Assembly: GCA_027488335.1 (NCBI GenBank)
Contig: JAIYBU010000048.1
Coordinates: 1 to 32,970, forward strand
Reading direction: 5' to 3'
Origin: Cytophagaceae bacterium
Lineage (GTDB): Bacteria; Bacteroidota; Bacteroidia; Cytophagales; Spirosomataceae
DNA: 32,970 bases
In this document: positions 1-16,951 of the stretch, one piece after another
How positions within the stretch are numbered: position 1 is the first letter of the stretch
How the letters are laid out: each line of letters starts with the position of its first letter
The notes under the pieces: model-generated
Told to the model about the DNA's origin: nothing
Database searches by the model: none
What the model saw: only the letters and a program-made list of their open reading frames with translations
Translations under genes and position numbers: made by a program

Positions 1-1581
1 AACAGAAATGTTGTTGAATCGAATAGTAAAACTATTTTTATTTATTTCAATGATATTAAGTTTTCGTCCACTGGTCATGCTCTTAGGGTTGGAGCTGACT
101 ACCAAATAAAAAAGCAACAAACCGTAGGGGTTTTAGTAAAAAGTAACTTTACGACAGGTGAACAAAATAGCCATAACTTAACCAAAATCACTACCCTTCA
201 AGATAGTCAGCCTTCTACTTTGCAACGGTTACAAACAAATAATTTTTCTAACTCTAAAGGTACAAGTGTAGCTGTCAACTTAAACTATCGTGGTACAATT
301 AATAAAAAAGGTGCAACTCTCACAGCAGACTTTGATGCCGCCAACTATGATATAAATCGAAACCAAGATTTTAAGAATCAATATATTTCGGAAGCAGCAC
401 AAGTGATTGGAACACCTACTCAACTACGAAACCTATCTCCATCGAATACGAGTTTTCAGTCGATAAAAGTAGATTTTTCGCAACCTATCAATAAAACTAT
501 GGCTTTAGAAATAGGGGCAAAAACCAGTTGGAGTAAAAGCGATAATGATTTAAAGTTTGATACATTAAATATCAATCAATGGGTTGTTGATAAAAGCAGA
601 AGTAATCGTTTCTTATACGAAGAACATATCATAGGGGCCTATACTAATATTTCGGGTGAAGTAGGGAAAAACTCTTTTCAGGTTGGACTACGCATTGAAA
701 ACACCCATACACAGGGCAATTCGTTAACTACTGATAATGTGGTTGATAGAACGTACTTCCGATGGCTTCCGACTGCACAAGTTATGCACAAATTTAATGA
801 CAACCACTCTGTTTCGTTAGGTTATGTGCGTAAACTTACACGCCCAACCTATTATGACCTCAATCCATTTAAGTATTATATAAACCCATTTTCATATACC
901 GAAGGTAATCCATTTTTATTACCTATCACACGTGATGTTGTAGAAGCCAATTATGCTTATAAAGATTATAGTTTTGGCATATCCTACCGCAATGATTCGG
1001 ATGTATTTGCTCAAATGCCTGTGCAAAATGACGCAACAAAGGTATTGTATTATACACGAGTAAATCTCAATACACAACGTACACTATCTTTCGACATATA
1101 TGCACCTATTAAAATCACCGATTGGTGGCAAATGCAACATAACTTTTCTGTTTACTATCGTCAAGTTAAATCAAATTATCTCAGTAGTAGCTTCAATAAC
1201 ACAAACTGGTCGTATTATATGGATGGTTCGCAGGCATTTTCGTTATCCAAGACTTTCACAACTGAGTTAAGCTATTATTTCAGTGGCCCATCTGCTTCAC
1301 AATTTTATTTAAATCAATCTTACGGTGAAGTAGCTCTAAATTTTAAGAAAACCATTTTGAATAAAAAAGCCGATTTGACGCTCAATTTTACAGATATTTT
1401 TAGGACTTACCGAGAAAAATACGCTGGACAATACCTCAATATTGATGTTTCGACCCTTCAACTTAGAGGAACTCAAGCCATAAAACTGAGACTAAATTAT
1501 CGTTTTGGTTCTTCGACATTTAACCGAAGAAATCGAAATACAGGTAGTTCGGAAGAAGAAAACAGAGTAAAAATGAATTAG
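1..1581 (+). CDS. Outer-membrane beta-barrel / TonB-dependent-receptor-like protein, C-terminal part (5' end outside window)
   Basis: The reading frame is open from base 1, so the gene starts upstream and the visible 526 residues are its C-terminal barrel. The chain alternates aromatic and polar residues as outer-membrane beta strands do, includes an RPTYYDLNPF-type segment, and ends with RLNYRFGSSTF followed by a polar tail rich in Arg, Asn and Glu. These are features of the OMP_b-brl_3 family of Bacteroidota, whose missing N-terminus usually carries a carboxypeptidase-regulatory-like domain and a plug. It should sit in the outer membrane. The stop is only 19 bases before the dioxygenase fusion gene, so the two are probably co-transcribed. 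A role in export, uptake or immunity for the peptide product is inference from position only. The TTG at 220 is internal and is not the start. Confidence 0.85.
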   Translation, partial: NRNVVESNSKTIFIYFNDIKFSSTGHALRVGADYQIKKQQTVGVLVKSNFTTGEQNSHNLTKITTLQDSQPSTLQRLQTNNFSNSKGTSVAVNLNYRGTINKKGATLTADFDAANYDINRNQDFKNQYISEAAQVIGTPTQLRNLSPSNTSFQSIKVDFSQPINKTMALEIGAKTSWSKSDNDLKFDTLNINQWVVDKSRSNRFLYEEHIIGAYTNISGEVGKNSFQVGLRIENTHTQGNSLTTDNVVDRTYFRWLPTAQVMHKFNDNHSVSLGYVRKLTRPTYYDLNPFKYYINPFSYTEGNPFLLPITRDVVEANYAYKDYSFGISYRNDSDVFAQMPVQNDATKVLYYTRVNLNTQRTLSFDIYAPIKITDWWQMQHNFSVYYRQVKSNYLSSSFNNTNWSYYMDGSQAFSLSKTFTTELSYYFSGPSASQFYLNQSYGEVALNFKKTILNKKADLTLNFTDIFRTYREKYAGQYLNIDVSTLQLRGTQAIKLRLNYRFGSSTFNRRNRNTGSSEEENRVKMN

Positions 1582-1600: not shown

Positions 1601-2614
1601 ATGACGATGGAAATGGCATTTACTACCAAACCGACATATTGTCCAAATGTTCTATCGGTTCAATACTTCGTAAAATCACTGGGTATAGAACCCGATAGAA
1701 GTCAAATTCGTGAACAAATTACGTCATCGACTAAATATCCATTAGTGACGGTAAATGATATTACAACGGTCTTAGGTAACTGGAATATAAATTGTGCAGC
1801 ATTCAAGGCAAAAACAGAAATCTTGCCTCAACTGGGTAGTCCGTTTATTGCTCATTATACAAAAGCCAACGATAAGTATTTTGTTGTGGTAGAAAACGTA
1901 GATTCCAACTACGTAGATTATTATTTACCACAGCAAGGTCATATTAAAGAATCATTCGGGGATTTCTTAAATAACTGGACTGGTATAATTGTGGTTGCTA
2001 ATACTGAAGAAGTAACAACCATCACACTACCAAAAGATTTAGAAACCATAGAAGCGGATAGATATAAAAACGAATGTGTGAAAATTATTCCAGCGTTTTT
2101 AAGTACAGACGAATGTCAGGCCATTATAGACTATACCGAAACTCAAAGTCTTTTCCAAAGAAGCGAAGTAGTTGAGTATGCCACAGGTAAAGTAAACATT
2201 ACTGACCATCGAACAAGCTTTAGTGCAACGCTTTCGGCAGAAGAATTACCAATGTATAGTAAAATACAAGATAAAGTGGCCGAATTATTACAAATCCCAA
2301 AATCACATATTGAGGCATTGCAATGCGTACGATATTGCGAAGGGCAGGAATTTAAACCCCACCATGACTCTGGAAGTGAACTCCATCGCTTGCATACCTT
2401 ACTTATTTATCTGAACGATGACTTTGAAGGTGGGCAAACATACTTCCCAGAATTGTTTTTTGCAGTAAATCCTAAACGTGGAAGTGCGTTGCATTTTCTG
2501 AATCAAGATACAGAAGGCAATGTTATTCCATACTCATTTCATGCAGGATTACCCATTAAAAATGGCATAAAGTACGCCTGTAACATTTGGGTAAAAGATA
2601 GACCTATTAATTGA
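1601..2614 (+). CDS. Inactive C39-like domain fused to prolyl-4-hydroxylase-type Fe(II)/2-oxoglutarate dioxygenase
   Basis: Residues about 10-133 follow the plan of the C39 peptidase domain, including a Pro-rich PFIAHY segment and a closing NNWTGIIVV strand. The position of the catalytic His is Tyr93 (DKYFVVVE against EHFVVLYD in the exporter next door) and the Asp position is Leu109, so it should not cleave. Residues about 155-333 are a P4Hc dioxygenase with iron ligands His254 and Asp256 (PHHD) and His314 (FHAGLPI), and 2-oxoglutarate-binding Lys324. The expected reaction is hydroxylation of a peptide side chain in the cytoplasm with O2 and 2-oxoglutarate. The dead C39 domain may hold the leader peptide, as C39-like domains do in some exporters; this is inference. 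The gene is 54 bases before the C39 exporter. ATG codons at 1601, 1607 and 1613 are all possible starts. Confidence 0.85.
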   Translation: MTMEMAFTTKPTYCPNVLSVQYFVKSLGIEPDRSQIREQITSSTKYPLVTVNDITTVLGNWNINCAAFKAKTEILPQLGSPFIAHYTKANDKYFVVVENVDSNYVDYYLPQQGHIKESFGDFLNNWTGIIVVANTEEVTTITLPKDLETIEADRYKNECVKIIPAFLSTDECQAIIDYTETQSLFQRSEVVEYATGKVNITDHRTSFSATLSAEELPMYSKIQDKVAELLQIPKSHIEALQCVRYCEGQEFKPHHDSGSELHRLHTLLIYLNDDFEGGQTYFPELFFAVNPKRGSALHFLNQDTEGNVIPYSFHAGLPIKNGIKYACNIWVKDRPIN

Positions 2615-2668
2615 TTAATCGGTTTATCCAGCTTGTATTCTGAACTTCATTCTGAACCAACATTCATC

Positions 2669-4960
2669 ATGCTTAACTCAAAGTTCAAATATTTTCGACA
2701 GCTCGATTACATGGACTGTGGGCCAACCTGCCTCCGCATGATTTCGGCTTACTATGGAAAAGATTATTCCTTAGACTTTTTCCGTGCCAACGCTCACATC
2801 ACTCGCAATGGTGTGAGCTTGAGCGGTATTGCCCAAGCCGCCGAAAAAGTAGGTTTCCGCACGCTCTCCGTCAAGCTAACTTTAGAACAACTCGTAAACG
2901 AAGTGCCTCTCCCCTGCATTTTGCACTGGAATCAGGAACACTTTGTGGTATTATATGATGTAACAGATAAAAACTTTTTCGGAAAAACGGAGCAAAAATT
3001 TATAGTAGCCGACCCTGGTCATGGCTTAGTAAAGATTGATAAGGCAACCTTAATGAAATGCTGGACCAGCACCAGCACCCAAAAAGGCATTGCACTATTA
3101 CTTGAGCCAACGCCAGAGTTTCATAATGCTACCGAAGACCACAAGGCTACGCCAGTTGGATTTAAGTTTTTATTTCAATATTTGTTTCCTTACAAAAAAT
3201 ATATCTTTCAGATTTTCCTCGGAATGATTTTCGGGAGTCTGATAAGTATGATTTTTCCGTTTTTAACTCAAAGTTTGGTTGACTATGGCGTACAGATGCA
3301 AAACGTCAGCTTTATTCATCTGATACTTTTCTCTCAACTCTTGCTTTTCTTGGGCAACATCGGAGTTGACATGATACGAAACTGGATTTTGCTGCACATC
3401 AATACCCGACTGAGTGTTTCGATTATATCCAATTTTTTATCGAAACTCATGAAATTACCCATCAATTTCTTTGAGTCGAAAAACATTGGTGATGTTTCGC
3501 AGCGTATCAACGACCACCACCGTATCGAAGAATTTCTGACGGGTTCTACCCTCAACACGCTCTTTTCATTTATCAATCTTATTGTGTTTTCGGTGGTTTT
3601 GGGGTCTTATGCTTCATCGCTCCTATTTGTGTTTTTCTTCGGAAGTGTCGTTTCGGTTGCATGGGTTTTCATCTTCTTGAAACAAAGAAAAAACTTAGAT
3701 TATCGACGTTTTCAGCGACTGCGTGAAAATCAAAATAGTATTTATGAACTTATTACAGGAATGCAGGAAATCAAACTCAATAACTGTGAGCAAGCCCGTC
3801 GATGGGAATGGGAACGCATTCAAGCCAAACTCTTCAAGATAAATATTCAAAGTTTATCGCTCGAACAATACCAAGAAGTCGGTTCATCGTTTTTTACACA
3901 ACTCAAAAACATTTTGATTTCATACATGGCCGCCAAGCTCGTCATTGAACACCAAATTACGCTCGGTGCAATGCTCAGTATTTCATACATCATCGGACAA
4001 ATGAATGGCCCACTTCACCAACTCATGGACTTTGTGAAGAAAGTACAAGATGCCAAAATAAGTTTGGATAGACTGGGAGAAATTCACAACAAACCCAATG
4101 AAGAATTAGATGAAGAATATACTTGGGGAAAATCGAAACTTCATAACGAAGACGATGATGAAACCGATGAAGTAGAGAAAGACGTGATTAAACTAAATAG
4201 CCTTGAAGCAAGCCGAGCAAAAGGAATTACGCTTGAAAATGTTTCATTCCGATACGGAAGTCCAACGTCACCGTTGGTTGTTAAAAACTTAAATTTACAT
4301 ATTCCTAAAGGCAAGGTTACGGCCATAGTTGGAGCAAGTGGCAGTGGAAAAACTACGCTATTAAAATTGTTTCTAAAATTCTATTCGCTCACTGAAGGCG
4401 AGATTTTTATTGATGGCGTAAATATCAACGACATTTCGGCCAAAGCTTGGCGAGAACAATGCGGAACCGTCATGCAAGATGGCTATATTTTCTCGGATAC
4501 GATTGCTCGAAACATAGCCGTTGATGGACAAAAAATCAACGAAAAACGTATCATGAAAGCCGTGCAAGTGGCTAATATTCAAGAGTATATCAAGAAACTT
4601 CCGCTCGGTTTCACCACACGTATTGGCAATACAGGTGCGGGCTTAAGCGGTGGCCAACGACAAAGATTATTCATTGCCAGAGCGGTCTATAAAGACCCGA
4701 AATTTCTCTTCTTTGATGAGGCCACCAGTGCTTTAGATGCCAATAATGAAAAAATAATTATGGAAAATCTTGATGAGTTTTTTAAGGGAAAAACCGTTGT
4801 CGTGATTGCCCATCGTTTGAGTACCGTTAAGAATGCCGACCAAATAATTGTGCTACACAACGGCGAAATCAAGGAAGTCGGTAATCATAAAGAATTAACC
4901 GTAAACAAAGGTTACTATTACGAATTAGTAAAAAATCAGTTGGAACTCGGAGCTGCTTAA
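2669..4960 (+). CDS. Peptidase C39-containing ABC transporter (RiPP/bacteriocin exporter)
   Basis: This 763-residue exporter has three parts. The N-terminal C39 protease has Gln11, Cys17 (DCGPTCL), His91 (EHFVVL) and Asp115 (ADPGHG), so the full catalytic set is present. A membrane domain covers about residues 165-455. The nucleotide-binding domain has Walker A GASGSGKTT near 555, signature LSGGQRQR near 657, Walker B FLFFDEATSALD near 680 and the switch-His IAHRLS. An acidic linker (EDDDETDEVE) lies before the NBD. Family members cleave leader peptides, normally after Gly-Gly, and export the product. I chose ATG 2669 because it leaves the usual short lead-in to the Cys motif; an upstream TTG at 2633 would add 12 residues. 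HlyD follows after 14 bases, indicating one operon. The proposed precursor lacks a Gly-Gly site, an open question. Confidence 0.95.
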   Translation: MLNSKFKYFRQLDYMDCGPTCLRMISAYYGKDYSLDFFRANAHITRNGVSLSGIAQAAEKVGFRTLSVKLTLEQLVNEVPLPCILHWNQEHFVVLYDVTDKNFFGKTEQKFIVADPGHGLVKIDKATLMKCWTSTSTQKGIALLLEPTPEFHNATEDHKATPVGFKFLFQYLFPYKKYIFQIFLGMIFGSLISMIFPFLTQSLVDYGVQMQNVSFIHLILFSQLLLFLGNIGVDMIRNWILLHINTRLSVSIISNFLSKLMKLPINFFESKNIGDVSQRINDHHRIEEFLTGSTLNTLFSFINLIVFSVVLGSYASSLLFVFFFGSVVSVAWVFIFLKQRKNLDYRRFQRLRENQNSIYELITGMQEIKLNNCEQARRWEWERIQAKLFKINIQSLSLEQYQEVGSSFFTQLKNILISYMAAKLVIEHQITLGAMLSISYIIGQMNGPLHQLMDFVKKVQDAKISLDRLGEIHNKPNEELDEEYTWGKSKLHNEDDDETDEVEKDVIKLNSLEASRAKGITLENVSFRYGSPTSPLVVKNLNLHIPKGKVTAIVGASGSGKTTLLKLFLKFYSLTEGEIFIDGVNINDISAKAWREQCGTVMQDGYIFSDTIARNIAVDGQKINEKRIMKAVQVANIQEYIKKLPLGFTTRIGNTGAGLSGGQRQRLFIARAVYKDPKFLFFDEATSALDANNEKIIMENLDEFFKGKTVVVIAHRLSTVKNADQIIVLHNGEIKEVGNHKELTVNKGYYYELVKNQLELGAA

Positions 4961-4974
4961 TCTAACTCAATCTT

Positions 4975-5694
4975 ATGCCAAACTCTACTACTCAGTTCGA
5001 AATCGTCAGCGACGAAATGCAGGAGATAATCGGGTATATTCCAAGCTGGATAACCCGCTGGGGAATCACCGTATTATCTATTTTATTAGTGATTTTAGTG
5101 GTTGTTGCTCAATACATTTCTTATCCCGATGTACTGATTGCTCCAGCCGAGATTCTGGCTAAACAACAACCATTCAAAGCAAGTTGGTTTCGTTCCGAAC
5201 AATTTATGGCCTATCAATTAAAAACCAAAGAAAACCAGCAAGTTGCCAAAGGAGACACGCTATTGGTAGAAGAAAACCTTAAAACACATCAAAAACAAGC
5301 TATTCTATCACCAATTGCTGGAAAAGTTTTCTTAACAAAAGGCTATCAGGACAATGCTCGCAAACAAACCATTTGGGTGATGCCCGATATTGATGATTTT
5401 GAGGTGCAACTACGAGTACCCATAAAAAAATCGGGTAAAGTAAGAGCTGGACAAAAAGTGCAAGTAAGTTTAGACGAATACCCAGCCAACGAGTTCGGAT
5501 TCTTATACGGAAAAATCACGCACATTACTCCAATAAGAATCGAAAACGTCTATCGTGTAAATGTTGCACTTGAAAATAAGTTAGTATCAAATACAGGCGT
5601 ATCTATTCCACAACAGCCCAGTTATATCGGCAATGCCGAAATTATATCTACCGAAAAAAGTGTTTTTAATCGCATATTTGGTGGGCTATTTTAG
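4975..5694 (+). CDS. Short HlyD-family membrane-fusion (periplasmic adaptor) protein
   Basis: The protein has one membrane helix at about residues 30-47 (ITVLSILLVILVVVAQYI). A lipoyl/barrel-sandwich module follows (VAKGDTLL, then SPIAGKVF) and then a beta-barrel part (RVPIKKSGKVRAGQKVQVSL). At 239 residues it is a little over half the size of ordinary adaptors in C39 exporter systems, which are roughly 400 residues. The long alpha-helical coiled-coil hairpin that normally splits the lipoyl halves is missing: the two halves are joined by only a short linker around residues 95-105. It should be anchored in the inner membrane and work with the exporter encoded 14 bases upstream. Because the hairpin normally contacts the outer-membrane channel, it may dock differently. 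The C-terminus RIFGGLF looks natural and I see no frameshift. Confidence 0.85.
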   Translation: MPNSTTQFEIVSDEMQEIIGYIPSWITRWGITVLSILLVILVVVAQYISYPDVLIAPAEILAKQQPFKASWFRSEQFMAYQLKTKENQQVAKGDTLLVEENLKTHQKQAILSPIAGKVFLTKGYQDNARKQTIWVMPDIDDFEVQLRVPIKKSGKVRAGQKVQVSLDEYPANEFGFLYGKITHITPIRIENVYRVNVALENKLVSNTGVSIPQQPSYIGNAEIISTEKSVFNRIFGGLF

Positions 5695-5722
5695 GTAATC
5701 AATTAATGATGTAATTTTAGGT

Positions 5723-5754
5723 AATTTCTTCTATGAATCTACATAGGAGAAATT
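5723..5754 (+). terminator. Hairpin after the exporter operon (possible weak terminator)
   Basis: Arms 5723-5735 and 5742-5754 pair over 13 bp with one G-U pair and a 6-base loop. The hairpin lies 28 bases after the HlyD stop and before a new promoter candidate. It is not followed by a T-run, so termination could be weak or could depend on another factor. Confidence 0.4.
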
Positions 5755-5839
5755 GGCATTTACACCCCTAAGTGAATTAGTTAGTTAAATTGTTTCCCAC
5801 CCTCCCCCCGATGGGGAACAACAGTACGCCATAGCAGGA

Positions 5840-5871
5840 TTTGCCATATACGTATCGATTTACTACTTTTA
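5840..5871 (+). promoter_or_regulatory. Candidate Bacteroidota promoter for the kinase-regulator operon
   Basis: TTTG at 5840-5843 (-33 element) is separated by 20 bases from TACTTTTA at 5864-5871. The latter matches the TAnnTTTG -7 element except at its last base. This predicts a transcript start near 5878 and a leader of about 20 bases before the ATG at 5898. Upstream, at 5789-5818, there is a C-rich stretch and an 11-mer that recurs before the stand-alone LytTR gene. Confidence 0.45.
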
Positions 5872-5897
5872 TAATCTCCAATTTTTAAGCATAGCTA

Positions 5898-7013
5898 ATG
5901 GTCAAAGAAAAACACAACATTTCGGAATTGATAAACCAATTCGACTATTCGGGCTGGCGACGCATCGGTATTCATTTATTCTTTTGGTCAATTGTTTATA
6001 TGTTTATAAGGTTTGAAACCAATCAAAACAATTATTATTCAAACCAAACACTATTTGAGCTAATAGTTCTGAGAGACTTCCTTATATGTGTCTTTTCGCA
6101 TTATTTTATCGTTGCATTTATAATTCCCAAACTACTCAATGCTCGCTGGTTACCTTCACTGTTCTTATTAATTTTGGCATATATGACTGTTCACACGATG
6201 TCTTATTGGAGCAATCAACTACTGCTTTTTTATTTTGAGAATGCGGGTATGAAAAAAGCTCTCGGCAAATATTACTTTAAGGTTCCCTTTATTGTCGGGG
6301 TGTTTAGCCCTATTACGGTCTATTATAACTATGCCGTTTATGGGTTCAATACTGCTATTACGATTGTGGTAAAGGTATCAAAAGATATTTTTCAATCTCG
6401 TATCAGAAATACTGCTCTCGAAAAGGAAAACTTAAAACTTGAAATGGATTTTCTGAAAGCTCAAGTGAATCCACATTTTTTATTCAATACCCTTAACAAT
6501 GTCTATTCACTCATCATTGATAAAGATGAAGCGGCTGCCAATATTCTCATTAAACTATCAGATTTGATGAGATACACCCTTTATGAAACCAATACTGATA
6601 AAATACTATTATCTCGTGAGTTGAAATTTATTGAAGACTACATTGCCTTAGAGAAAATACGGCATCAGAGAAAAGTAAAAATTGAACTTAATCAAAAAGG
6701 AAATACAGGTAATTTGATGATTCCTCCATTAATTTTAATCACTTTTGTCGAAAATGCGTTTAAACATGGCGTCAATAATACGATTGAAGCTTCGTGGATA
6801 AAAATCACAATTGAATTAGAGAATAATACGCTTAAATTTGATGTGTTAAACAGTAAACCCAAAAAATTAAGGGACGAAACCATGCAAGGAGGTATAGGAG
6901 TTGTAAATGTTCAGAAAAGACTCAAAAATCTATATCCTAATCACCACTCTTTAAACATAAAGAACGAAGCTGATAAATTCCATATACATCTAATCTTACA
7001 ACTCAATGGATAA
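5898..7013 (+). CDS. LytS/YehU-type sensor histidine kinase
   Basis: The N-terminal half has four probable membrane helices (about residues 24-38, 55-78, 85-110 and 130-160). A short coiled coil of charged residues leads into the His_kinase domain, with phospho-acceptor His193 in AQVNPHFLFNTLN. The ATP-binding region has PPLILITFVENAFKHG (N box) and GGIGVVNVQKRL (G box). The length, 371 residues, is usual for the family. It has no recognisable extracellular sensor domain, so the signal is likely sensed in or at the membrane. It overlaps the regulator gene by 8 bases, so the pair is translationally coupled. Lying between the exporter and the proposed precursor, it most likely controls the peptide locus; the actual signal, perhaps the peptide itself, is unknown. 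Confidence 0.93.
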   Translation: MVKEKHNISELINQFDYSGWRRIGIHLFFWSIVYMFIRFETNQNNYYSNQTLFELIVLRDFLICVFSHYFIVAFIIPKLLNARWLPSLFLLILAYMTVHTMSYWSNQLLLFYFENAGMKKALGKYYFKVPFIVGVFSPITVYYNYAVYGFNTAITIVVKVSKDIFQSRIRNTALEKENLKLEMDFLKAQVNPHFLFNTLNNVYSLIIDKDEAAANILIKLSDLMRYTLYETNTDKILLSRELKFIEDYIALEKIRHQRKVKIELNQKGNTGNLMIPPLILITFVENAFKHGVNNTIEASWIKITIELENNTLKFDVLNSKPKKLRDETMQGGIGVVNVQKRLKNLYPNHHSLNIKNEADKFHIHLILQLNG

Positions 7014-7782
7014 AATACTATCATGTGTTATTATTGACGATGAGCCTTTAGCACAAGATTTATTAGAAAAATTCGTCAATCGTATTTCCTACCTAAGTTT
7101 GGCTGCCCGCTTCGATAATGCCATAGACGCCATTGGTCAATTAGATAAATTGACGCCTGATATTATTTTTTTAGATATAAATATGCCCGAAATGACGGGT
7201 ATTGAATTTCTTCGTTCTTTTTCACAAAAACGTCCATATATTATTCTTACGACCGCCTACCCACAATATGCCATTGATGGTTTTGAGTATGATGTGGTAG
7301 ATTATTTATTGAAACCTATTCCTTTTGATAGGTTTATGAAAGCCATCAACAAAGTAAAAGACCGACAAAAAGATGCTAAAGTAGAGCCAGTAAACGATAA
7401 GTCTAATCTTCAAACAGATACGCAGGCAGCATCTCAGCCAATCCAAGAAAACACCGCCAATAACAATTTTATTTTGGTTAAAGAAGATAAAAAATTGGTT
7501 CGTATAAGTTTTGAAGATATTGTTTTTATTGAGGCCATGCGAGATTATATAAAAATTCATACCAAACATAAAGAAATAATTACCCACATGACAATGGCAA
7601 AAATCGAGCAAGCTCTCAATACTGTTCTATTTTTACGAGTAAATCGTTCGTTTATTATGAATATTGATTGCATAAAAGCAATTGATGGTAATACCATCGA
7701 AACAACGAATCATAAAAAATTACCCATCGGAATCAACTATAAAGATGCTGTAAAAGAAGTTCTGCACAGTAAAATGGTATAA
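7006..7782 (+). CDS. LytTR-family response regulator
   Basis: A receiver domain occupies residues 5-120, with acidic pocket Asp11/Asp12, phospho-acceptor Asp57 (FLDINMPEM), the TTAYPQYA switch strand and Lys103 (LLKPI). A Gln/Asn/Thr-rich linker at about 120-150 joins it to a LytTR DNA-binding domain at 155-255 (ISFEDIVFIEAMRDYIKIHT, then FLRVNRSFIMN). These regulators bind pairs of short direct repeats in phase on one face of the helix. It is encoded in an 8-base overlap with the kinase gene. The first sequence downstream of its stop is a 139-base gap holding a 21-bp-period direct repeat and then the proposed precursor gene, so that promoter is its most likely target. Confidence 0.95.
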   Translation: MDKILSCVIIDDEPLAQDLLEKFVNRISYLSLAARFDNAIDAIGQLDKLTPDIIFLDINMPEMTGIEFLRSFSQKRPYIILTTAYPQYAIDGFEYDVVDYLLKPIPFDRFMKAINKVKDRQKDAKVEPVNDKSNLQTDTQAASQPIQENTANNNFILVKEDKKLVRISFEDIVFIEAMRDYIKIHTKHKEIITHMTMAKIEQALNTVLFLRVNRSFIMNIDCIKAIDGNTIETTNHKKLPIGINYKDAVKEVLHSKMV

Positions 7783-7810
7783 AATTGAGGGCATTTATCT
7801 TCGATATCTC

Positions 7811-7864
7811 AAATTCATCGAAGAAAATACTAAATCCGTCGAATTTTTTTTACCCATACATTTA
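7811..7864 (+). promoter_or_regulatory. Direct repeat and -7-like box upstream of the peptide gene (candidate LytTR-controlled promoter)
   Basis: AAATTCATCGAAG at 7811-7823 recurs as AAATCCGTCGAAT at 7832-7844, matching at 10 of 13 positions with starts 21 bp apart, two helical turns. A further TCTTCGAT at 7798-7805 forms an 8-bp inverted repeat with ATCGAAGA at 7817-7824. TACATTTA at 7857-7864 resembles the TAnnTTTG -7 box, but no TTTG lies where a -33 element is expected; the second repeat is there instead. That arrangement fits an activator-dependent promoter. The regulator identity is inference. Confidence 0.4.
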
Positions 7865-7921
7865 TTCGATTTAACTTCATCATATTAAAATAATTCATTT
7901 CAAATATTAAAACACAAAACG

Positions 7922-8050
7922 ATGAAAAATCTGAACCAACCATCAAAATTATCAGTAAAAAAATCAATTATCGTAAAATTCAAAAACGATACATCTCCTA
8001 AAAACAGATTGACCTACTGTTCTATTCGCATCACCGATACTATTTTCTAA
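7922..8050 (+). CDS. Putative RiPP (class I lanthipeptide-like) precursor peptide, 42 residues
   Basis: A small ORF with an ATG start fills the otherwise empty gap between the regulator and the receiver-only gene. Residues 9-20, KLSVKKSIIVKF, resemble the K-L-S-L-K-K-x-T-I-x-x-L leader motif of Bacteroidota lanthipeptide precursors. The remainder carries the residues a LanB enzyme would act on: Thr24, Ser25, Thr31, Ser34, Thr38 and Thr40, with a single Cys33 in RLTYCSIRITDTIF. It also contains Pro26 and Asp39, which a dioxygenase could hydroxylate. No Gly-Gly cleavage site is visible, which is unusual for a substrate of a C39 exporter, and one Cys allows at most one thioether ring. The next gene starts 31 bases later. 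Assignment rests on size, position, leader resemblance and composition, not on homology that I can test. Confidence 0.65.
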   Translation: MKNLNQPSKLSVKKSIIVKFKNDTSPKNRLTYCSIRITDTIF

Positions 8051-8081
8051 TTCAAATTAACAAACTGCTAATCAACCTGTT

Positions 8082-8459
8082 GTGACCTATACTTGTGCAA
8101 TCATAGAAGACGAGTTTTTATCAGAAAAACTTTTAAAAAGATACATCCACCAGACTCCTTTCTTAGAACTGTCATGGACTTGTAACTTTGCCGAAGAAGC
8201 TATCGAAATAGTAAGCACACAACAGGTAGATTTACTTTTTGTAGATTTACAACATTTACCCATACAACCTGACGATGCCTTGGTGCAGCTCTTACGTGAG
8301 CATCAAAGCATAATTATCACTTCAATCTATCCCAAAAAGTTTTTAAACGTAGCGTTAAATATAGTGGCATTCATCGAAAAACCTGTAACCTTTGAGCTTT
8401 TTCAAGATGCTCTCGAAAGATTTATGGCTAAAATGGAAAACGACATTACGCCAAGCTGA
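8082..8459 (+). CDS. Stand-alone response-regulator receiver domain
   Basis: This 125-residue protein is a complete receiver fold and nothing else. The acidic pocket is Glu9-Asp10-Glu11 (IIEDEF), the phospho-acceptor is Asp55 (LLFVDLQ), the switch Thr is in IIITSIYP, and the conserved Lys is Lys100 (FIEKPV). It most resembles the receiver half of the LytTR regulator at 7006, so it may have arisen from a duplicated regulator that lost its DNA-binding domain. It could act as a phosphate sink or as an adaptor for the upstream kinase; this is inference. GTG at 8082 is the only plausible start after the in-frame stop at 8058. It lies between the proposed precursor and the dehydratase, presumably in the same transcript. 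Confidence 0.88.
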   Translation: MTYTCAIIEDEFLSEKLLKRYIHQTPFLELSWTCNFAEEAIEIVSTQQVDLLFVDLQHLPIQPDDALVQLLREHQSIIITSIYPKKFLNVALNIVAFIEKPVTFELFQDALERFMAKMENDITPS

Positions 8460-8508
8460 TAATTAACGGTATTAAAATGGTAATATAGGTAGTAAAACAT
8501 CAATTCTT

Positions 8509-11500
8509 TTGGAAAATAAAATCATTCCTTTTGATTTCTATTTGCTTCGTAGGCCATTACTTTCAGTCGAAATTTTTGATGATTTTCTAAAATCTGAAAA
8601 TCCACCTGAATGGCTGCGTGCAATCTATCAAAACCCGATTCTTCAGGAAGCAATCTATATAGCCTCACCAAATCTGTATCAGCGATTTGAACTTTGGCTA
8701 AAAGGAGAGAAAATTGGTGAAGAAGAAAAGTTTAAGCAAACACTCGTCAAATACCTCATTCGGATGTGTACCCGCTCCACGCCGTATGGGCTATTTGCGG
8801 GCTGTGCCGTAGGAAAATTCGACACCAATACCACCATACGCTTCAACACAAATACTCCGTTTCATAAACATACTCGACTCGACATGAATTATCTGACCGA
8901 GATAATTCAGCATTTGACCAACAATGAACGTTTCTTGGCAAAGTTCTTATTTTTTCCAAATTCAAGCATATATCGACTAAACAATACCTATCGTTATCTT
9001 TACTACGAGGTTATCAACAAAAATCGCTATTATTCTTTGGTTTCGGTCGAAGCATCGGCAGCTCTCTCTTTGGCATTACAAAAAGCCGAAAAGGGCATTT
9101 TGCTTACTGATTTAGCAACGATACTCACCAACGCTGACGTAAATTTTGAAGAAGCGGTTGATTTTGTTAAACAACTCGTAAACGAGCAAATACTTCAATC
9201 AGAACTCGAACCCACAACCACTGGACAGGAGTTTCAAGAAGTACTTTTACAAAAATTAGGCTTAAAACCTTTTGATGAAATAGTACGTTTGCTACAAAAA
9301 CAAGAAGAGAACATTTTCAAATATCAACATGCGAAGCAGTTAATTGAAGAAAACTTTTCGGAGATTGCAGAGAAAGACCTCTTTCAAACCGATTTATTTT
9401 TCAAGACAGATAAAAATACCATCAGTCATTCGGTGATTGAAAAACTTACTTCTACGCTTTCAAAAATACTAATTGCCTTAAATCCGCCTTATAAAAATTT
9501 GAATCTCGACGAGTTCAAACAAAGATTTTATGAACGTTATGAACGACAAGAAATTCCACTAACCCAAGTACTTGATTCTGAATTAGGACTGGGATATGCC
9601 ACCGATTCTCACCTTTCGGTAGGACATTTACCACTGATTGAAGATTTAAACATCAAACAACCAAACGACAACGATAAAACTGGGTGGAATACTTGGAAGG
9701 AATTTGTACTTAAAAAATATACCGAAACATTATTCAGGCAACAACCCGAACTCATAGTTACCGACGCTGATATTGATTTCTTGACAAAAAACTATTCAAA
9801 TACGAATCAGCTACCCGAAACATTCTATGCTTTGGGTAGTATTTTATCCACTTCCGAACAAAGCTTAGATGCTGGAGATTTTCGGTTTATACTAAAAAAT
9901 GCCTTTGGCCCATCAGGAGCAAAAACAATGGCTCGTTTTTGTCATGGGAATGAAGAACTCAGCCAGAAAGTGGCAGACATAGTTCGGTTTGAGCATCACA
10001 CAAACAGCGATGTTATTTTTGCAGAAATTGTTCACCTCCCCGAAGAACGCACAGGAAACATATTGATGCGACCGCAGTTTCGGCAGTACGAAATTCCGTA
10101 TATCTGCCAATCTTCGGTACAACAAGAAAATCAGATAAAACTCGACGATTTGATGGTTTCAGTAAGAAACAATCGTATTTTTCTACGCTCTCGTAAGCAT
10201 AATAAATTTGTAATTCCTCGACTGACAAACGCTCATAACTATCATAATGGACTCGGTATTTATCGATTTTTGTGCGATTTACAATATGAATACGGCTCTC
10301 TGAATGCTTTTTGGCATTGGGCAAATTTTAAAGAACAACTCTTTTTGCCGAGAGTTAGATATAAAAATATCATTCTGAGTTTATCCACTTGGAATATCCC
10401 AACCAACGATTTTGTGACTCATAAAAAACTATCAGCATCGGAATTTTGTACCATCCTAAGAACTTCATTTCGATTACCAAAATTCGTCGTTTTAGGCGAC
10501 TTTGATAATGAATTAGTGCTTGATTTAGACAATAACTATTGCCAAGAGATTTTAAAAAGTGAATTTTTCAAAAAAACCATTATCAAACTAAGTGAATATC
10601 TTTCTGATTCATCGAATTGCTTTATCACACATGAAGGGAAAGCATTTTCACACGAAATTATTATACCCTTCAAAGCAGATTCTTTCCTAAAAAAACTACA
10701 TTTCCCTGCTCTCAACTTTACGGCTAAAAATATTAAACGCAATTTTGAGGTGGGAAGTGAGTGGTTTTATGTCAAATTATATTGCGGAGAAAAAACAGCC
10801 GATGAGGTGCTACAAAAGATAATTAGACCTTTTGTAGAAAAATCATATAAAAAAGAGCTAATAAATGGATTTTTCTTTATTCGATATTATGATTCTGACC
10901 CCCATCTAAGACTCCGCTTTAGAGGAAATGCGAAAAATAAATTTTATGATAATGTCTTGGTTCAACTTCAAGTAAAACTAAAACCTTATCTGACTCACAA
11001 TCGAATTTATCAACTAAAAATTGATACTTATCAAAGAGAAATTGAGCGTTATGGTGCGGAAAATATCGAACAAGTAGAAAAAATGTTCTGTCAGAACAGT
11101 TATTTGGTTTTAAAACTAATGCAGTTGCTTACCGATGACGATTCCGAAATACTTCGTTGGCATGTAGGCATTAAAGGAATGGACTGGATAATGTCTGACT
11201 TCGGCCTGACACTTCCCCAAAAAAGAGCATTTGCAGAAGAGTGTCAACTTGGTTTTTTTGCAGAGTTTAGCATTGAAAAAACAACAAAAGAGCAACTCAA
11301 CCAGAAGTTTCGAGAGGACCAACAGGCGATTCGTGATACACTTACATCAACAGATTTTGATGCTATATTTGAACAATACTCAATTAAAAAACTTGATTTT
11401 TCGGTCGATAAATTAAAGAAAAGTTCTTATTTTTATCAGATTTTAGGAAGTATCATTCATCTTTTCATCAATAGGCTTTTTATCTCACAACACCGCCAGC

Positions 11501-11571
11501 ACGAACTCGTACTCTACCATTTCTTGACTCGATACTACATTTCTGAAATTAGTCGAGAACCAAAAACGTAG
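8509..11571 (+). CDS. Full-length lantibiotic dehydratase (LanB) with C-terminal thiopeptide-type elimination domain
   Basis: At 1020 residues it matches full-length LanB enzymes such as NisB. The N-terminal glutamylation domain shows DFYLLRRPLLSVE (9-21), EAIYIASPNLYQRF (47-60) and RMCTRSTPYGLFAGC (85-99), the signature of the lantibiotic dehydratase N-terminal family. The C-terminal elimination domain begins near residue 745 (SEWFYVKLYCG) and contains FFFIRYYDSDPHLRLRFRG near 787-805. Known LanB enzymes use glutamyl-tRNA to glutamylate Ser/Thr in a leader-bearing peptide and then eliminate glutamate, giving dehydroalanine/dehydrobutyrine. It is cytoplasmic. The start is TTG at 8509: the frame is closed at 8473 and no ATG lies between. 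No LanC cyclase gene follows, so ring closure, if any, is unexplained in this window. Confidence 0.95.
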   Translation: MENKIIPFDFYLLRRPLLSVEIFDDFLKSENPPEWLRAIYQNPILQEAIYIASPNLYQRFELWLKGEKIGEEEKFKQTLVKYLIRMCTRSTPYGLFAGCAVGKFDTNTTIRFNTNTPFHKHTRLDMNYLTEIIQHLTNNERFLAKFLFFPNSSIYRLNNTYRYLYYEVINKNRYYSLVSVEASAALSLALQKAEKGILLTDLATILTNADVNFEEAVDFVKQLVNEQILQSELEPTTTGQEFQEVLLQKLGLKPFDEIVRLLQKQEENIFKYQHAKQLIEENFSEIAEKDLFQTDLFFKTDKNTISHSVIEKLTSTLSKILIALNPPYKNLNLDEFKQRFYERYERQEIPLTQVLDSELGLGYATDSHLSVGHLPLIEDLNIKQPNDNDKTGWNTWKEFVLKKYTETLFRQQPELIVTDADIDFLTKNYSNTNQLPETFYALGSILSTSEQSLDAGDFRFILKNAFGPSGAKTMARFCHGNEELSQKVADIVRFEHHTNSDVIFAEIVHLPEERTGNILMRPQFRQYEIPYICQSSVQQENQIKLDDLMVSVRNNRIFLRSRKHNKFVIPRLTNAHNYHNGLGIYRFLCDLQYEYGSLNAFWHWANFKEQLFLPRVRYKNIILSLSTWNIPTNDFVTHKKLSASEFCTILRTSFRLPKFVVLGDFDNELVLDLDNNYCQEILKSEFFKKTIIKLSEYLSDSSNCFITHEGKAFSHEIIIPFKADSFLKKLHFPALNFTAKNIKRNFEVGSEWFYVKLYCGEKTADEVLQKIIRPFVEKSYKKELINGFFFIRYYDSDPHLRLRFRGNAKNKFYDNVLVQLQVKLKPYLTHNRIYQLKIDTYQREIERYGAENIEQVEKMFCQNSYLVLKLMQLLTDDDSEILRWHVGIKGMDWIMSDFGLTLPQKRAFAEECQLGFFAEFSIEKTTKEQLNQKFREDQQAIRDTLTSTDFDAIFEQYSIKKLDFSVDKLKKSSYFYQILGSIIHLFINRLFISQHRQHELVLYHFLTRYYISEISREPKT

Positions 11572-11610
11572 AAAAAATGTAGTATTAGTTCAGTAAAACA
11601 ATTTTATAAA

Positions 11611-11910
11611 ATGACTGGTACTTTTGAAGAATTAGTAGGTTCGACCGAACCCGTTTTGATAGATTTCACGGCCGAATGGTGTAAGCCATGCCGAAAAATA
11701 GACGCAATGCTCAATCAGTTGGTAGAGGAACTTGACGAAGATATTACGATTATGAAAATCGACGTTGATAAGAACCCAGCCCTCCGAAAAAAATATGCGA
11801 TTGATGCCGTACCAACTTTAATTTTGTTTCAAAAAAGCAAACAATTATGGCGACACACAGGGCTTATTTCTGTTCCCGAAGTAGTAAGAGCAGTGAATAG
11901 AGCTTTGTAA
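11611..11910 (+). CDS. Thioredoxin-family protein
   Basis: A 99-residue single-domain thioredoxin fold. The redox site is WCKPC with Cys24 and Cys27, preceded by the LIDFTAE strand, and the cis-proline strand is VPTLILF. No signal peptide or membrane segment is present, so it should be cytoplasmic. It starts 39 bases after the dehydratase stop and ends the transcription unit, directly before a strong hairpin. In this setting it may keep the precursor cysteine reduced before modification, or serve general thiol chemistry; the link to the peptide pathway is inference from position. It could also be an ordinary thioredoxin captured by the operon. Confidence 0.92.
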   Translation: MTGTFEELVGSTEPVLIDFTAEWCKPCRKIDAMLNQLVEELDEDITIMKIDVDKNPALRKKYAIDAVPTLILFQKSKQLWRHTGLISVPEVVRAVNRAL

Positions 11911-11980: not shown

Positions 11981-14900
11981 TTACTGGATAACGATTTGGC
12001 TAAAGCCTCGATTATTGCGTTCGAGACGTATCTGGGTAGCAATTCGCTCTTTTATTGACTCTACGTGCGAGATAATCCCGATATTCTTTTGAGCTTCTTG
12101 CTGCAATTTTTCGAGTGTATTCAATGCTAAGTCAAGCGTTTCGGGGTCGAGCGTGCCAAAACCTTCATCAATAAATAAACTATCGAGTTTGATATTTTTT
12201 GATGCTAAATCTGACAAAGCCAAGGCCAACGATAAACTAATCATAAAGGTTTCTCCACCCGAAAGAGTTTTCACTGAGCGGCGTTCGTTAGCCATATATT
12301 GGTCAACAATCATTAGCTCATCTTCATCTTGTTCGCCAGGTTTATCAAGCAAATACCTATCTGATAAATCCGTAAGGCGGCGGTTTGCCAAAGCCATTAA
12401 ACGTGAAAGTGTAAGTCCTTGTGCGAAAGTGGCAAACTTTTTACCGTCGGCATTTCCGATATATTTATCCAATAACTCCCATTTCAAATTGTCTTTTTCT
12501 AAGTTTTGTAGTTGGGTTTGCAATTGTTCAATCGTTGCTTTTATTTGGGTTTGGGTGGCAAGATTTACCGATATTTCTACTTGTTCTTTTCTTGTTGTTT
12601 CTTGCTTGTTGTTTGTATCAATTTGTTGTGAAAGCAACGTCTCCAAATCTATATTCTTATCATCTTTTTCCTGCAATTTATCCAGCTCCCATTGATGTTC
12701 TTTTATTTGCTCAATCAAGGTTTGAATGGCTAAATGTAAAGCTTGTTTTTTCTCTCTTAATGCCTTTGCATTTTCGCTACTCAAAATGGCAGCTTGACAA
12801 GCTTTCACATCTTCAAAACCGACCAGCTTCACTTGAGTTTCAAGGTTACTTTTATCCGTTTCAAAGTTTTTTTGCTTAGGAAACAGTTCTTCTTTGAGTT
12901 CTTTAATAATTTTTACAGAAGATTGAATATTGGCCTGGGTCTTTACAAACCAAGTCTGAATATCGTTGTAGTCTTTCTCGAAGTTTAGACCACCATATAA
13001 GTTTTTGATGCTTATAGTCAACAAACTAAAGTCTTCTTGAAGTTTTTTAGTACTTATACAAAGATTGTATAAACTTCGTAAATCTTCACGTTTTTGCACT
13101 TTACTGTCAATCCCATTTAAGGCATTTTGTTGCGTTTCGATTGCCTTGATTTGAGCATCAATGATTTCTGTATTTCCTCCTACTTTTTCGAGTTTTAGTG
13201 CTTGTTTCTTTTCTTCTATTTTTAGTTTTATAAGCAAAATTTGCTCATTGAAAGTGGCAATTTTAGCAATCGCATTTTTCAATAGCACATCGGCCGAAGT
13301 CAGTTTTGTATGGAAGTCTTGAAAGGTTTCATTCAAGGCTTTTTCTTCTTTTTTAGCTTCACTAAGTTTCAAATCAATCTCCACGTAATTATTGGCATAA
13401 TGGCTCAAAAATGGGTGTTCGAGCGAGCCACAAAGCGGACACGGCTCATCTTTCTTTAGTAAAGTCTGGCGGTCTTTTTCAAAGTTATAAGATTTACCGA
13501 GTGTTTCTTTTTCGGTTTCGAGTTGCTTTATTTTTTGTCCAATTTCTATAATAAGTTTTTGTACTTTTTCAAGTTCTGGCTTTTGTGTGGCAATAAATGT
13601 GCTTTGCAATTTTTCTTGCTCTTGTTCTTTTTTTATATCCTCACTAATTTTTAGATACTCCCAAACAAATTGCTTTAAAGCCGTATAATTTCGGTGTTCT
13701 TCGGTCAAGTTTTCTCTTTTCGTAGAAACTTCTTCCAAAGCAGTAATTTGGGCAATTTTAAAAGTCTCATCAAGCGTAGTTTTGTGCGTAAGACCTACAT
13801 TTTTTATACGTTCAATGGTTTCATCTGTAATTTGTCGGAAATCAAAATTGAGTGATTTTTCGGAAATTTTGTTCATTAATTCCTCAATCTGAGTCTCGTT
13901 GGTCTTTTTGGCGGCTTCCTGTATGCTTCTTTGGTTTTCAAACTGAGTTAATTTTTCTCTAAAATTTTGCAGAACTTCGAGGGCATTTTCAAGAGTAAGC
14001 GTGCTTGGCTGTTTGGTTAATTCACCAATTTTATTTAAAATTCTATTGAGTAAGTTTGTATTTTTTTCCAAACTTTCCTCTTCGCTCGTCAAGCGTTCTT
14101 GGAGGCTTTGAAGACTTTTTTGCTGGCTTTCAAGCTGCAAAATTTGCGATTGAAAAGGTTCAGCTTTTTCGTGAGTTTGTAGCTTTTTTGCTTCAAAAGT
14201 CTCAAAATCATTCAAATTTTGCAGTTCTTTGGCTTGTCGTTCGCTTTTTTCAGCAATACTTTTCTGAAAATTTAGCATCTGATTTTTGAGGTCAATTTTG
14301 GTTTTTAAAACCTGCGTTTGAGCCTCTAAGTCAATCAAAACTTTCTCAATATCTGCCTTACGATTCAACCAAACTTGTTCTTGTTCGGGTGTGCAGAGTT
14401 TACGTTTTTCGGTGTCGATATTGGTACGTAAATCTTTGAGGGCTTGCCCTTTTTCTTTCGCAATTTCAAAGGCTTTTTTGCCCAATTTTCGGTAAATCTG
14501 TGTGCCTGTTATATCTTCCAACAATTTCCCCCGTTCGTCTTTTCCTGATTTTAGAAACTTGGCAAACTCCCCCTGCGAAAGCAAAATTGATTTGATAAAT
14601 TGGTCATACGAAAGCCCGATTAGTTCTTCGTTGCGTTTTGGCACTTCGCTTTTTTTGAGTGGTAATAATTGCCCAGTTTGTAGGTTGGTAATTTCCATTC
14701 CATAATCATTGAGATTTTGATTACGGTTCATCTCAATCCACCATTTCGATACAAAACTGCCCGATTTGCACGAAAATTCAATTTCTACGGCACATTCTCG
14801 CTCACCTTTGGTCAGAATTGAGCCAGCCGAAGCCACAAAATCTTTCGATATTTTTTTATCAAATCTTGGAATTTGGTTGAAAATTGCGAGCGTAATAGCA

Positions 14901-15043
14901 TCTAAAAGCGTAGATTTTCCTGCCCCCGTTGGGCCGACGATGGCAAAAAGGCCTGCCGAACCGAGTGGATTTTCGGTAAAATCAATGCGATGCTCGCCTT
15001 TAAATGAATTGATATTTTTTATGTATATTTTATTAATTTTCAT
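11981..15043 (-). CDS. sbcC: Exonuclease subunit SbcC (Rad50-like ATPase)
   Basis: This is the ATPase subunit of the SbcCD nuclease, which processes DNA hairpins and protein-blocked ends. The 1020-residue protein has Walker A GPTGAGKST near residues 37-45, long coiled coils on both sides of a zinc-hook CPLCGS near 534, the ABC signature LSGGETFMISLSLALAL near 925 and Walker B LFIDEGFGTLD near 958. The order and length are those of a complete Rad50-type protein. I chose the ATG at 15043, which begins MKINKIYIKNINSF as is usual for the family; a TTG at 15055 would add four residues. The start overlaps the sbcD stop by 11 bases, so the two are translationally coupled. Confidence 0.97.
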   Translation of the reverse strand: MKINKIYIKNINSFKGEHRIDFTENPLGSAGLFAIVGPTGAGKSTLLDAITLAIFNQIPRFDKKISKDFVASAGSILTKGERECAVEIEFSCKSGSFVSKWWIEMNRNQNLNDYGMEITNLQTGQLLPLKKSEVPKRNEELIGLSYDQFIKSILLSQGEFAKFLKSGKDERGKLLEDITGTQIYRKLGKKAFEIAKEKGQALKDLRTNIDTEKRKLCTPEQEQVWLNRKADIEKVLIDLEAQTQVLKTKIDLKNQMLNFQKSIAEKSERQAKELQNLNDFETFEAKKLQTHEKAEPFQSQILQLESQQKSLQSLQERLTSEEESLEKNTNLLNRILNKIGELTKQPSTLTLENALEVLQNFREKLTQFENQRSIQEAAKKTNETQIEELMNKISEKSLNFDFRQITDETIERIKNVGLTHKTTLDETFKIAQITALEEVSTKRENLTEEHRNYTALKQFVWEYLKISEDIKKEQEQEKLQSTFIATQKPELEKVQKLIIEIGQKIKQLETEKETLGKSYNFEKDRQTLLKKDEPCPLCGSLEHPFLSHYANNYVEIDLKLSEAKKEEKALNETFQDFHTKLTSADVLLKNAIAKIATFNEQILLIKLKIEEKKQALKLEKVGGNTEIIDAQIKAIETQQNALNGIDSKVQKREDLRSLYNLCISTKKLQEDFSLLTISIKNLYGGLNFEKDYNDIQTWFVKTQANIQSSVKIIKELKEELFPKQKNFETDKSNLETQVKLVGFEDVKACQAAILSSENAKALREKKQALHLAIQTLIEQIKEHQWELDKLQEKDDKNIDLETLLSQQIDTNNKQETTRKEQVEISVNLATQTQIKATIEQLQTQLQNLEKDNLKWELLDKYIGNADGKKFATFAQGLTLSRLMALANRRLTDLSDRYLLDKPGEQDEDELMIVDQYMANERRSVKTLSGGETFMISLSLALALSDLASKNIKLDSLFIDEGFGTLDPETLDLALNTLEKLQQEAQKNIGIISHVESIKERIATQIRLERNNRGFSQIVIQ

Positions 15044-16241: not shown

Positions 16242-16262
16242 GTGTTTTTTTCTGAACAACAA

Positions 16263-16293
16263 AAATGGCACATCCTTTCGAGATATGCCATTT
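16263..16293 (-). terminator. Intrinsic terminator after the NarL-type regulator
   Basis: Arms 16263-16274 and 16282-16293 pair at 11 of 12 positions around a 7-base loop. Read on the - strand, the stem is followed by a T-run (A-run at 16261-16265). It is 25 bases beyond the regulator stop at 16318 and just before sbcD, separating the two units. Confidence 0.75.
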
Positions 16294-16317
16294 ATTTGTG
16301 GTTTTTATCAAAAGCGT

Positions 16318-16941: not shown

Positions 16942-16951
16942 AGGGTTAGGG

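Follow-up and report, generated by a model that had tools for sequence, protein, structure and literature searches.

Among the closest described relatives of the locus treated here are the class I lanthipeptides of Bacteroidetes (Walker et al., 2020; PMC7268733); in the accessible part of that report, the survey takes LanC as its starting point and requires a LanB within seven genes, and LxLxKx5L is the leader motif of the class I LanAs. The window, that is, the whole stretch of DNA that we analysed (32,970 nucleotides; contig JAIYBU010000048.1 of Cytophagaceae bacterium, GenBank assembly GCA_027488335.1; C207 in our numbering), encodes a locus for ribosomally synthesized and post-translationally modified peptides (RiPPs). 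It resembles those systems, as set out there, in its full-length LanB, the class of its leader motif and its C39 exporter for double-glycine (GG) leaders, but differs in lacking LanC and in having a short, GG-less, Cys-poor precursor. Because the survey, in that part of its text, began from LanC, LanC-free loci fall outside it. Set against the features of a class I lanthipeptide cluster, ours has the full-length LanB and no LanC, and its precursor, with one Cys and six Ser/Thr, fits only a relaxed form of the motif. Pearlins and pyritides, in the accessible text of PMC11002830, come from LanC-lacking clusters with truncated LanBs; they share with our locus a LanB family protein without a cyclase and Cys-poor precursors, whereas our LanB is full-length with a conserved elimination domain. 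A survey of Bacteroidales reports, in its accessible portion, the reverse arrangement, LanC-like proteins and no LanB (PMC10352776).

The locus is probably a composite, co-regulated RiPP cluster. In our preferred explanation, to which we give a joint probability of about 0.6, the window is the downstream half of one such cluster, in which three enzyme-substrate pairs would share one chassis (C39-ABC exporter, HlyD adaptor, outer-membrane protein, kinase, LytTR regulator and receiver protein). LanB would glutamylate and then eliminate Ser/Thr of the peptide encoded at 7922-8050, recognised via its leader, and the product, given one Cys and no LanC, would be mainly a linear dehydropeptide. The radical S-adenosylmethionine (radical-SAM)/SPASM protein rSAM1, encoded on contig C78, would crosslink Cys-rich GG-leader peptides; a fusion of a C39-like domain and a prolyl-4-hydroxylase (P4H) would dock on the GG leaders of these peptides via its inactive peptidase domain and hydroxylate their cores, and the C39 exporter would afterwards cut at GG and secrete them. 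A second radical-SAM protein, rSAM2, a relative of cyclophane formers, would modify its own GG peptide, and the LytTR regulator would act via direct repeats with a 21-bp period upstream of the precursor genes. The features of the window are as follows:

1-1581, plus strand: 3′ part of an outer-membrane beta-barrel gene, 526 residues, labelled "TonB protein" (PF14905, 332.8 bits)
1601-2614, plus strand: C39-like domain without catalytic triad fused to a P4H-type Fe(II)/2-oxoglutarate (2OG) dioxygenase (PF03412, 48.8 bits; PF13640, 46.3 bits; both above cut-off)
2633-4960, plus strand: C39 peptidase ABC exporter with intact Cys-His-Asp triad (PF03412, 110.5 bits; PF00005, 112.8 bits)
4975-5694, plus strand: HlyD-type adaptor (PF13437, 31.5 bits)
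5898-7013, plus strand: histidine kinase (PF06580, 91.6 bits)
7006-7782, plus strand: LytTR response regulator (PF00072, 74.9 bits; PF04397, 69.2 bits)
7818-7843, plus strand: direct repeat TCGAA-N16-TCGAA, 21-bp period, candidate LytTR operator (one match in the window versus 0.15 expected)
7922-8050, plus strand: candidate short GG-less precursor, 42 residues, relaxed LxLxKx5L-type leader (core with one Cys and six Ser/Thr)
8082-8459, plus strand: receiver-domain-only protein (PF00072, 26.9 bits, E 5.9e-6, slightly below the cut-off of 30.2; relatives in other LanB loci)
8509-11571, plus strand: full-length LanB with glutamylation and elimination domains (PF04738, 518 bits; PF14028, 213 bits)
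11611-11910, plus strand: thioredoxin, of doubtful cluster membership (PF00085, 79.6 bits)

Pfam matches and a check of the triad bear out the gene content that the original prediction had read at 1601-11910, that is, a LanB, a C39 exporter with its triad, an adaptor, a two-component system, a thioredoxin and a dioxygenase fusion, all on the plus strand. That prediction had missed the contig end at base 1, the truncated outer-membrane gene, the receiver-only protein, the 42-residue precursor candidate, the loss of the triad from the fusion's C39 domain and the extension of the cluster onto C78.

The window is an entire contig of a 5.01-Mb assembly (240 contigs, 94.7% complete); base 1 is the contig end, and the break falls inside the cluster. 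A search with the fusion located a locus in Dyadobacter sp. CY261 (L005), the radical-SAM protein of which has a match of 73% identity in our genome near the end of C78. The minus strand of C78 terminates with the same 16 bases that begin the window, with the reading frame preserved, and this overlap has just two copies in the assembly, C78:1-16(-) and C207:1-16(+). The outer-membrane gene is split by the break, its first 292 residues on C78:1-877(-) and the remaining 526 at 1-1581 of the window; on an 812-residue homologue, the two pieces correspond to residues 3-292 and 290-812. Because the overlap is unique and in frame and the pieces are adjacent on the homologue, C78 continues the cluster; loss of the cluster's upstream remainder is rejected, as that remainder is present there. 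Going upstream, C78 encodes a 341-residue protein that has no match in Pfam or NCBIfam ("TPR" is a label only), rSAM1, four Cys-rich GG-leader peptides of 60-64 residues, rSAM2 and two small open reading frames (ORFs), followed by a gene on the opposite strand.

The absence of LanC, which the original prediction had noted for the window, extends to the whole assembly, in which a PF05147 search gives no match at E≤0.001, and a LanC gene just upstream, one of two observations named beforehand as overturning that prediction, is not among the genes in the 16 kb annotated on the continuing contig (C78:1-16000). At E≤10, three stretches match in the assembly, the best at 13.8 bits against a cut-off of 23.2; the same lenient scan gives matches in 5 of 14 control genomes, one of them above the cut-off. 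With nothing above the cut-off, we reject a LanC overlooked in the window, on the joined contig or elsewhere in the assembly. We compared the locus with 390 genomes drawn from the order (Cytophagales), in which counts are lower bounds, a limited number of candidates having been scored in each genome (LanB at most 2, LanC at most 5, rSAM1 at most 4, short peptide at most 18); for example, a LanB of G096 in stretch L048 lies outside the LanB match list. Among the 93 genomes with LanB, 64 also have LanC and 29 have no LanC match; G355 (a single contig), G352 and G367 are without a PF05147 match at E≤0.001. As far as the assembly goes, the lack of LanC is real, and it is recurrent; the best explanation is that the LanB is dedicated to a short peptide that is poor in Cys and has no GG.

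The LanB retains 119 of the 132 columns that are invariant among 13 GG-type LanBs, and the presence of the elimination domain excludes the truncated, pearlin type. Because it is full-length with this domain conserved, dehydration is expected from its sequence, rather than aminoacyl ligation. Stand-alone cassettes of LanB, kinase and regulator occur in eight genomes (G216, G045, G100, G236, G151, G284, G213 and G370), with the receiver protein too in seven; none has a LanC, fusion, rSAM1 or rSAM2 match within its stretch. The gap ahead of the receiver protein or LanB holds a GG-less peptide of 42-54 residues. The strict motif LxLxKx5L is found in 7/14 short peptides, 11/12 GG peptides beside LanC, 0/17 rSAM1 GG peptides and 0/4 rSAM2 peptides; a relaxed form, added since the strict expression fits just half of the short peptides, is found in 11/14, 12/12, 1/17 and 0/4, respectively (means in shuffled sequences, 0.59, 0.84, 0.36 and 0.18). 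Where a gap held more than one ORF, the one with a leader-like segment was chosen for this set, so that profile matches outside the members are the fairer test. Profile A1, built from the 14 short peptides (13 of which lie in the 390 genomes), gives 14 matches at E≤1e-3 beyond its own members; ten lie within 2 kb upstream of a same-strand LanB (G100:C34, G233:C2, G074, G045, G376:C9, G096:C325, G296, G227, G236 and G230), two at 3-6 kb from LanB (G356 and G376) and two elsewhere (G314, and G336 at a contig end).

Chance is rejected as the source of the short ORFs: motif ORFs occur in 27 of 37 LanB upstream regions in sense and in 7 in antisense (mononucleotide shuffles, mean 6.0 and maximum 12), a sense count in which GG and short types are pooled, some ORFs are evidently due to chance and some short peptides are missing. 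Comparison of six short peptides gives, in 15/15 pairs, a lower proportion of non-synonymous than of synonymous change (ratios 0.22-0.86), with synonymous sites near saturation. For 19 of 24 short-peptide LanBs (13 from profile members, the ten new ones and a second one of G299), LanC is more than 20 kb away or absent; for GG-peptide LanBs, LanC lies within 20 kb in 13/13 (G233:C1 is counted in both classes). On a tree of 37 LanBs, the short-peptide label changes 4 times versus 12.2 in shuffles, none of 500 of which was as low. The LanB most likely works on the 42-residue peptide at 7922-8050, and the LanC-free LanB cassette may represent a new class of dehydropeptides. Our literature search, the coverage of which left out most subscription papers, found no description of a LanC-free cassette with full-length LanB and such precursors, nor of a C39-like/P4H fusion.

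Three further observations concern these genes. The second LanB of our genome, on contig C35, is uninformative (C35 is 4.4 kb long and carries part of a LanB plus an ABC fragment). A helix-turn-helix regulator lies near the stand-alone LanB cassette in four loci (L123:7627-7962 in G216, with relatives in G100, G236 and G370). G379:C10:51106-52467 contains seven weak A1-profile matches in tandem, about 210 bases apart, six of them equal-scoring (E 0.024-0.028).

The fusion at 1601-2614 combines two known folds, those of the C39 domain of PCAT exporters and of bacterial prolyl-4-hydroxylases; it differs from the PCAT C39 domain in that its C39 half is triad-less and has an oxygenase, not a transporter, as its partner. 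In an alignment of 12 fusions with nine exporters, the triad Cys, His and Asp are each present in 9/9 exporters and in 0/12, 1/12 (L005) and 0/12 fusions, respectively. In the oxygenase half, the iron ligands HxD and distal His and a Lys as the basic 2OG residue are read from the alignment in 12/12 fusions; prolyl-4-hydroxylase chains in the PDB match with E 3.4e-23, and PF13640 scores 46.3 bits against a cut-off of 27. By sequence, then, the C-terminal half is a prolyl-4-hydroxylase-type Fe(II)/2OG dioxygenase, for which Pro hydroxylation itself is a prediction. An AlphaFold2 model of the fusion, built from 3 sequences only (mean predicted local distance difference test score 66.7), matches prolyl-4-hydroxylases, and its N-terminal domain matches a GG protease solved with leader peptide (6mpz) at 1.9-2.1 Å over 120-124 columns. 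We infer that the triad-less domain is a leader-docking domain; its expected ligand is a GG leader, absent from the short LanB-type peptide, and the most likely substrates of the dioxygenase are the Cys-rich GG peptides. As separate observations, L024:1465-3084 encodes a C39-like domain fused to VKOR and thioredoxin domains, with no Cys at the start of C39, a further reuse of the C39 fold, and frames of 500-580 residues that resemble it match the N-terminal domain of the fusion in many of the 390 genomes.

Both radical-SAM proteins score below the curated NCBIfam cut-offs of the named families (TIGR04463, PapB and SCIFF; YhhB and FxsB): rSAM1 reaches 190.9 bits against TIGR04463 (cut-off 525), and rSAM2 reaches 343 of 445 bits for YhhB and 331.6 of 370 bits for FxsB. 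rSAM1 exceeds the cut-off of the SPASM domain model TIGR04085 (44.3 versus 27); a family name for it is rejected because no equivalog model reaches its cut-off. The arrangement is like that of TIGR04463, PapB and SCIFF in that a SPASM radical-SAM protein adjoins Cys-rich GG peptides, and rSAM2 is close to the cyclophane formers YhhB and FxsB. Counted from the cut, position -12 is Leu and position -4 is either Ile or Val in all four C78 peptides, the usual GG-leader pattern, and the GG cores contain 2-4 Cys and 3-10 Ser/Thr. Matches to rSAM1 above 500 bits occur only in our genome, G355, G299, G352 and G367, all of which bear the fusion; 41 of the 390 genomes have some rSAM1 match, weak or strong. 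A distant rSAM1 relative on contig C146 of our genome belongs to a separate small locus and was set aside (L013:6276-8907; 46% identity; upstream of it lies a candidate peptide of 78 residues, and downstream a weak relative of the TPR-labelled protein). Small proteins with the pattern ..KSLDEIAK..NKxIGDNIxGGW.. are alike in our genome (L012:5756-5911) and G355 (G355:C1:5953604-5953771) and adjoin rSAM2 in the former and an rSAM2 remnant in the latter.

The full fusion occurs in 9 of the 390 genomes, in 10 copies, and lies within 20 kb of a LanB in seven of the nine as well as in Dyadobacter sp. CY261, so the pairing of LanB and dioxygenase singled out by the original prediction does recur; the second observation named as overturning that prediction, homologous loci in which the two never occur together, is thereby not made. 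In relatives annotated by homology over 17-39-kb stretches, a common set of genes is shared by our cluster (on two contigs), L005, G355, G299 and G352: LanB, rSAM1, the TPR-labelled protein, the fusion, the outer-membrane protein, C39-ABC, HlyD, kinase and regulator; none of these five cluster stretches has a LanC match. rSAM2 is present in ours, G299 and G352, as a matching 123-residue piece only in G355, and without a match in the L005 stretch. In G096 and G059, the fusion lies near a relative of the TPR-labelled protein (61 and 54 bits) and the outer-membrane protein, together with LanC and a second LanB and with no rSAM1 in the stretches; in G040 it lies with LanB and LanC. G367 has the fusion with rSAM1 and no LanB match in 39 kb (its LanB is 57 kb away), G235 has the fusion with an exporter and no LanB match in 29 kb, and in L006 the fusion adjoins a pair of the grasp-with-spasm graspetide type (TIGR04192/TIGR04193, as characterized in the accessible part of PMC8939145), with no LanB match in 21 kb. 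Unlike the grasp-with-spasm graspetides, neither our window nor C78:1-16000 contains a homologue of the L006 ATP-grasp protein. From these gene contents we conclude that the dioxygenase travels with a GG-peptide module in which rSAM1 and LanB2/LanC alternate. Other tailoring candidates stand beside the fusion in G040 (a carbamoyltransferase, L051:7568-9373) and G096 (a luciferase-like monooxygenase, L048:17780-18721).

The repeat TCGAA-N16/17-TCGAA precedes our short peptide and both precursor operons on C78, upstream of C78:4291 and of C78:6126; it is not rare, with 67 genomic sites versus 32 for the reversed control pattern. Of 27 precursor upstream regions (15 genomes or loci), 21 contain an exact direct repeat of a 5-mer with period 21; the other periods between 12 and 39 give 3-14, and shuffles give 6.0. 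A refined motif, GTCKR-N16-GTCKR, is present in 16/27 precursor upstreams versus 4/381 upstreams of other genes in the same stretches, a contrast that is optimistic because the motif was fitted on the regions where it was counted; three of the four control sites are at genes of such clusters (the outer-membrane gene of G096, gene 5610 of L005 and the regulator of G376). The GTCKR pair precedes all three precursor classes in G299 and G352 and one of three in our genome, where TCGAA repeats precede the remaining two. AgrA, ComE and similar LytTR regulators bind direct repeats that are spaced by about two turns of the helix. The repeats suggest one LytTR regulon, with binding predicted, and their common 21-bp period would define a regulon that is open to direct testing.

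In the original prediction, a single peptide may be the substrate of both LanB and the dioxygenase and so become dehydrated and hydroxylated; it would have one thioether at most, with ring closure either spontaneous or due to an enzyme encoded elsewhere. The limit of one thioether fits the one-Cys precursor; the two genes lie in one strand-coherent block, the fusion is near LanB in most of its genomes (the seven of nine above), and repeats before both substrate classes suggest joint expression. The single doubly modified peptide itself is not supported: the fusion occurs without a LanB match in the L006, G235 and G367 stretches, 8/8 stand-alone LanB cassettes lack the fusion, the short peptide has no GG leader for the C39-like domain to grip, and 16/17 rSAM1 GG peptides lack a LanB-type leader. 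Since C78 contributes a pair of radical-SAM maturases along with four Cys-rich peptides that have GG leaders, this is not the best reading, and we consider it unlikely. Equally improbable in our judgement is a lanthipeptide/radical-SAM hybrid, in which LanB would also dehydrate the Cys-rich GG peptides of C78, Cys addition would follow with spontaneous or rSAM-assisted closure in place of LanC, and rSAM1 would add other links. LanB and rSAM1 do co-occur in the five clusters with the common gene set, the GG cores carry both Cys and Ser/Thr, and rSAM1 or LanC, never both, is near the fusion in the eight fusion genomes or loci where either is found; against this, the leader motif is missing from all but one of the 17 rSAM1 GG peptides, a dedicated short peptide adjoins LanB, and G367 has rSAM1 and the fusion with no LanB in 39 kb. 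Very improbable is a class I lanthipeptide cluster of the ordinary kind, supplemented by further enzymes, whose LanC sits in the missing 5% of the assembly. Fragmentation into 240 contigs and the 64 of 93 LanB genomes that have LanC speak for it, but the continuing contig has no LanC, nor do G355, G352 and G367 at the threshold used, 29 LanB genomes are without a match, and the precursor has a single Cys.

Several observations count against the composite cluster of three enzyme-substrate pairs that we prefer. The assembly is 94.7% complete, and the G355 cluster encodes a 462-residue protein (L044:4816-6201, that is, G355:C1:5955515-5956903) with a LanC-like stretch below cut-off (PF05147, E 0.003, 16.6 bits versus 23.2; 5.8 bits with our own model of 10 LanCs); no CHG zinc motif is seen in it. 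Our short peptide fits the relaxed leader motif only, and those of L005, G355 and G299 fit neither form. Five of the 24 short-peptide LanBs have LanC within 20 kb (G096:C345, G096:C325, G059, G233:C1 and G100:C34); of these, two (G096:C345 and G059) also contain another LanB, which has GG peptides, and the G233:C1 LanB is preceded by both short and GG peptides. The short-peptide LanBs are clustered on the tree and are not one clade, as the four label changes indicate. The stand-alone LanB of G213 has a C39-ABC exporter and HlyD gene 4.3 kb away, and HlyD-like relatives occur in the G151 and G370 stretches. For the fusion, 6/12 sequences have a Cys one residue before the catalytic column, L005 retains the His, and few sequences stand behind the structural model.

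A bolder reading, which we regard as tentative and rather doubtful, is that kinase, regulator, short peptide, receiver and LanB form a self-contained circuit and a new class of LanC-independent, GG-less linear dehydropeptides, the product feeding back on its own kinase/LytTR pair, and that composite clusters such as ours have placed the export of Cys-rich peptides, modified by radical-SAM proteins and a hydroxylase, under this operator too. Genome mining based on LanC is blind to loci such as these, as the 29 LanB genomes without a LanC match illustrate; should LanB suffice to mature the short peptides, a group of peptides with dehydroamino acids has gone unnoticed. In the triad-less C39/P4H fusion, the domain with which an exporter grips leaders would have been co-opted to direct a tailoring enzyme to RiPPs of several unrelated types.

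The remaining features of the window are peripheral to the cluster. The thioredoxin at 11611-11910, for which no counterpart is found in any of the other stretches examined, was set aside as a cluster part. Inverted repeats are present in the intergenic gaps 5690-5900 and 7783-8085, and we give them no interpretation. Downstream, 3′ of the cluster, the minus strand at 11981-18817 encodes an SbcC/SbcD-like pair and a 7TMR-DISM kinase with a LuxR-type regulator, which are apparently unrelated.

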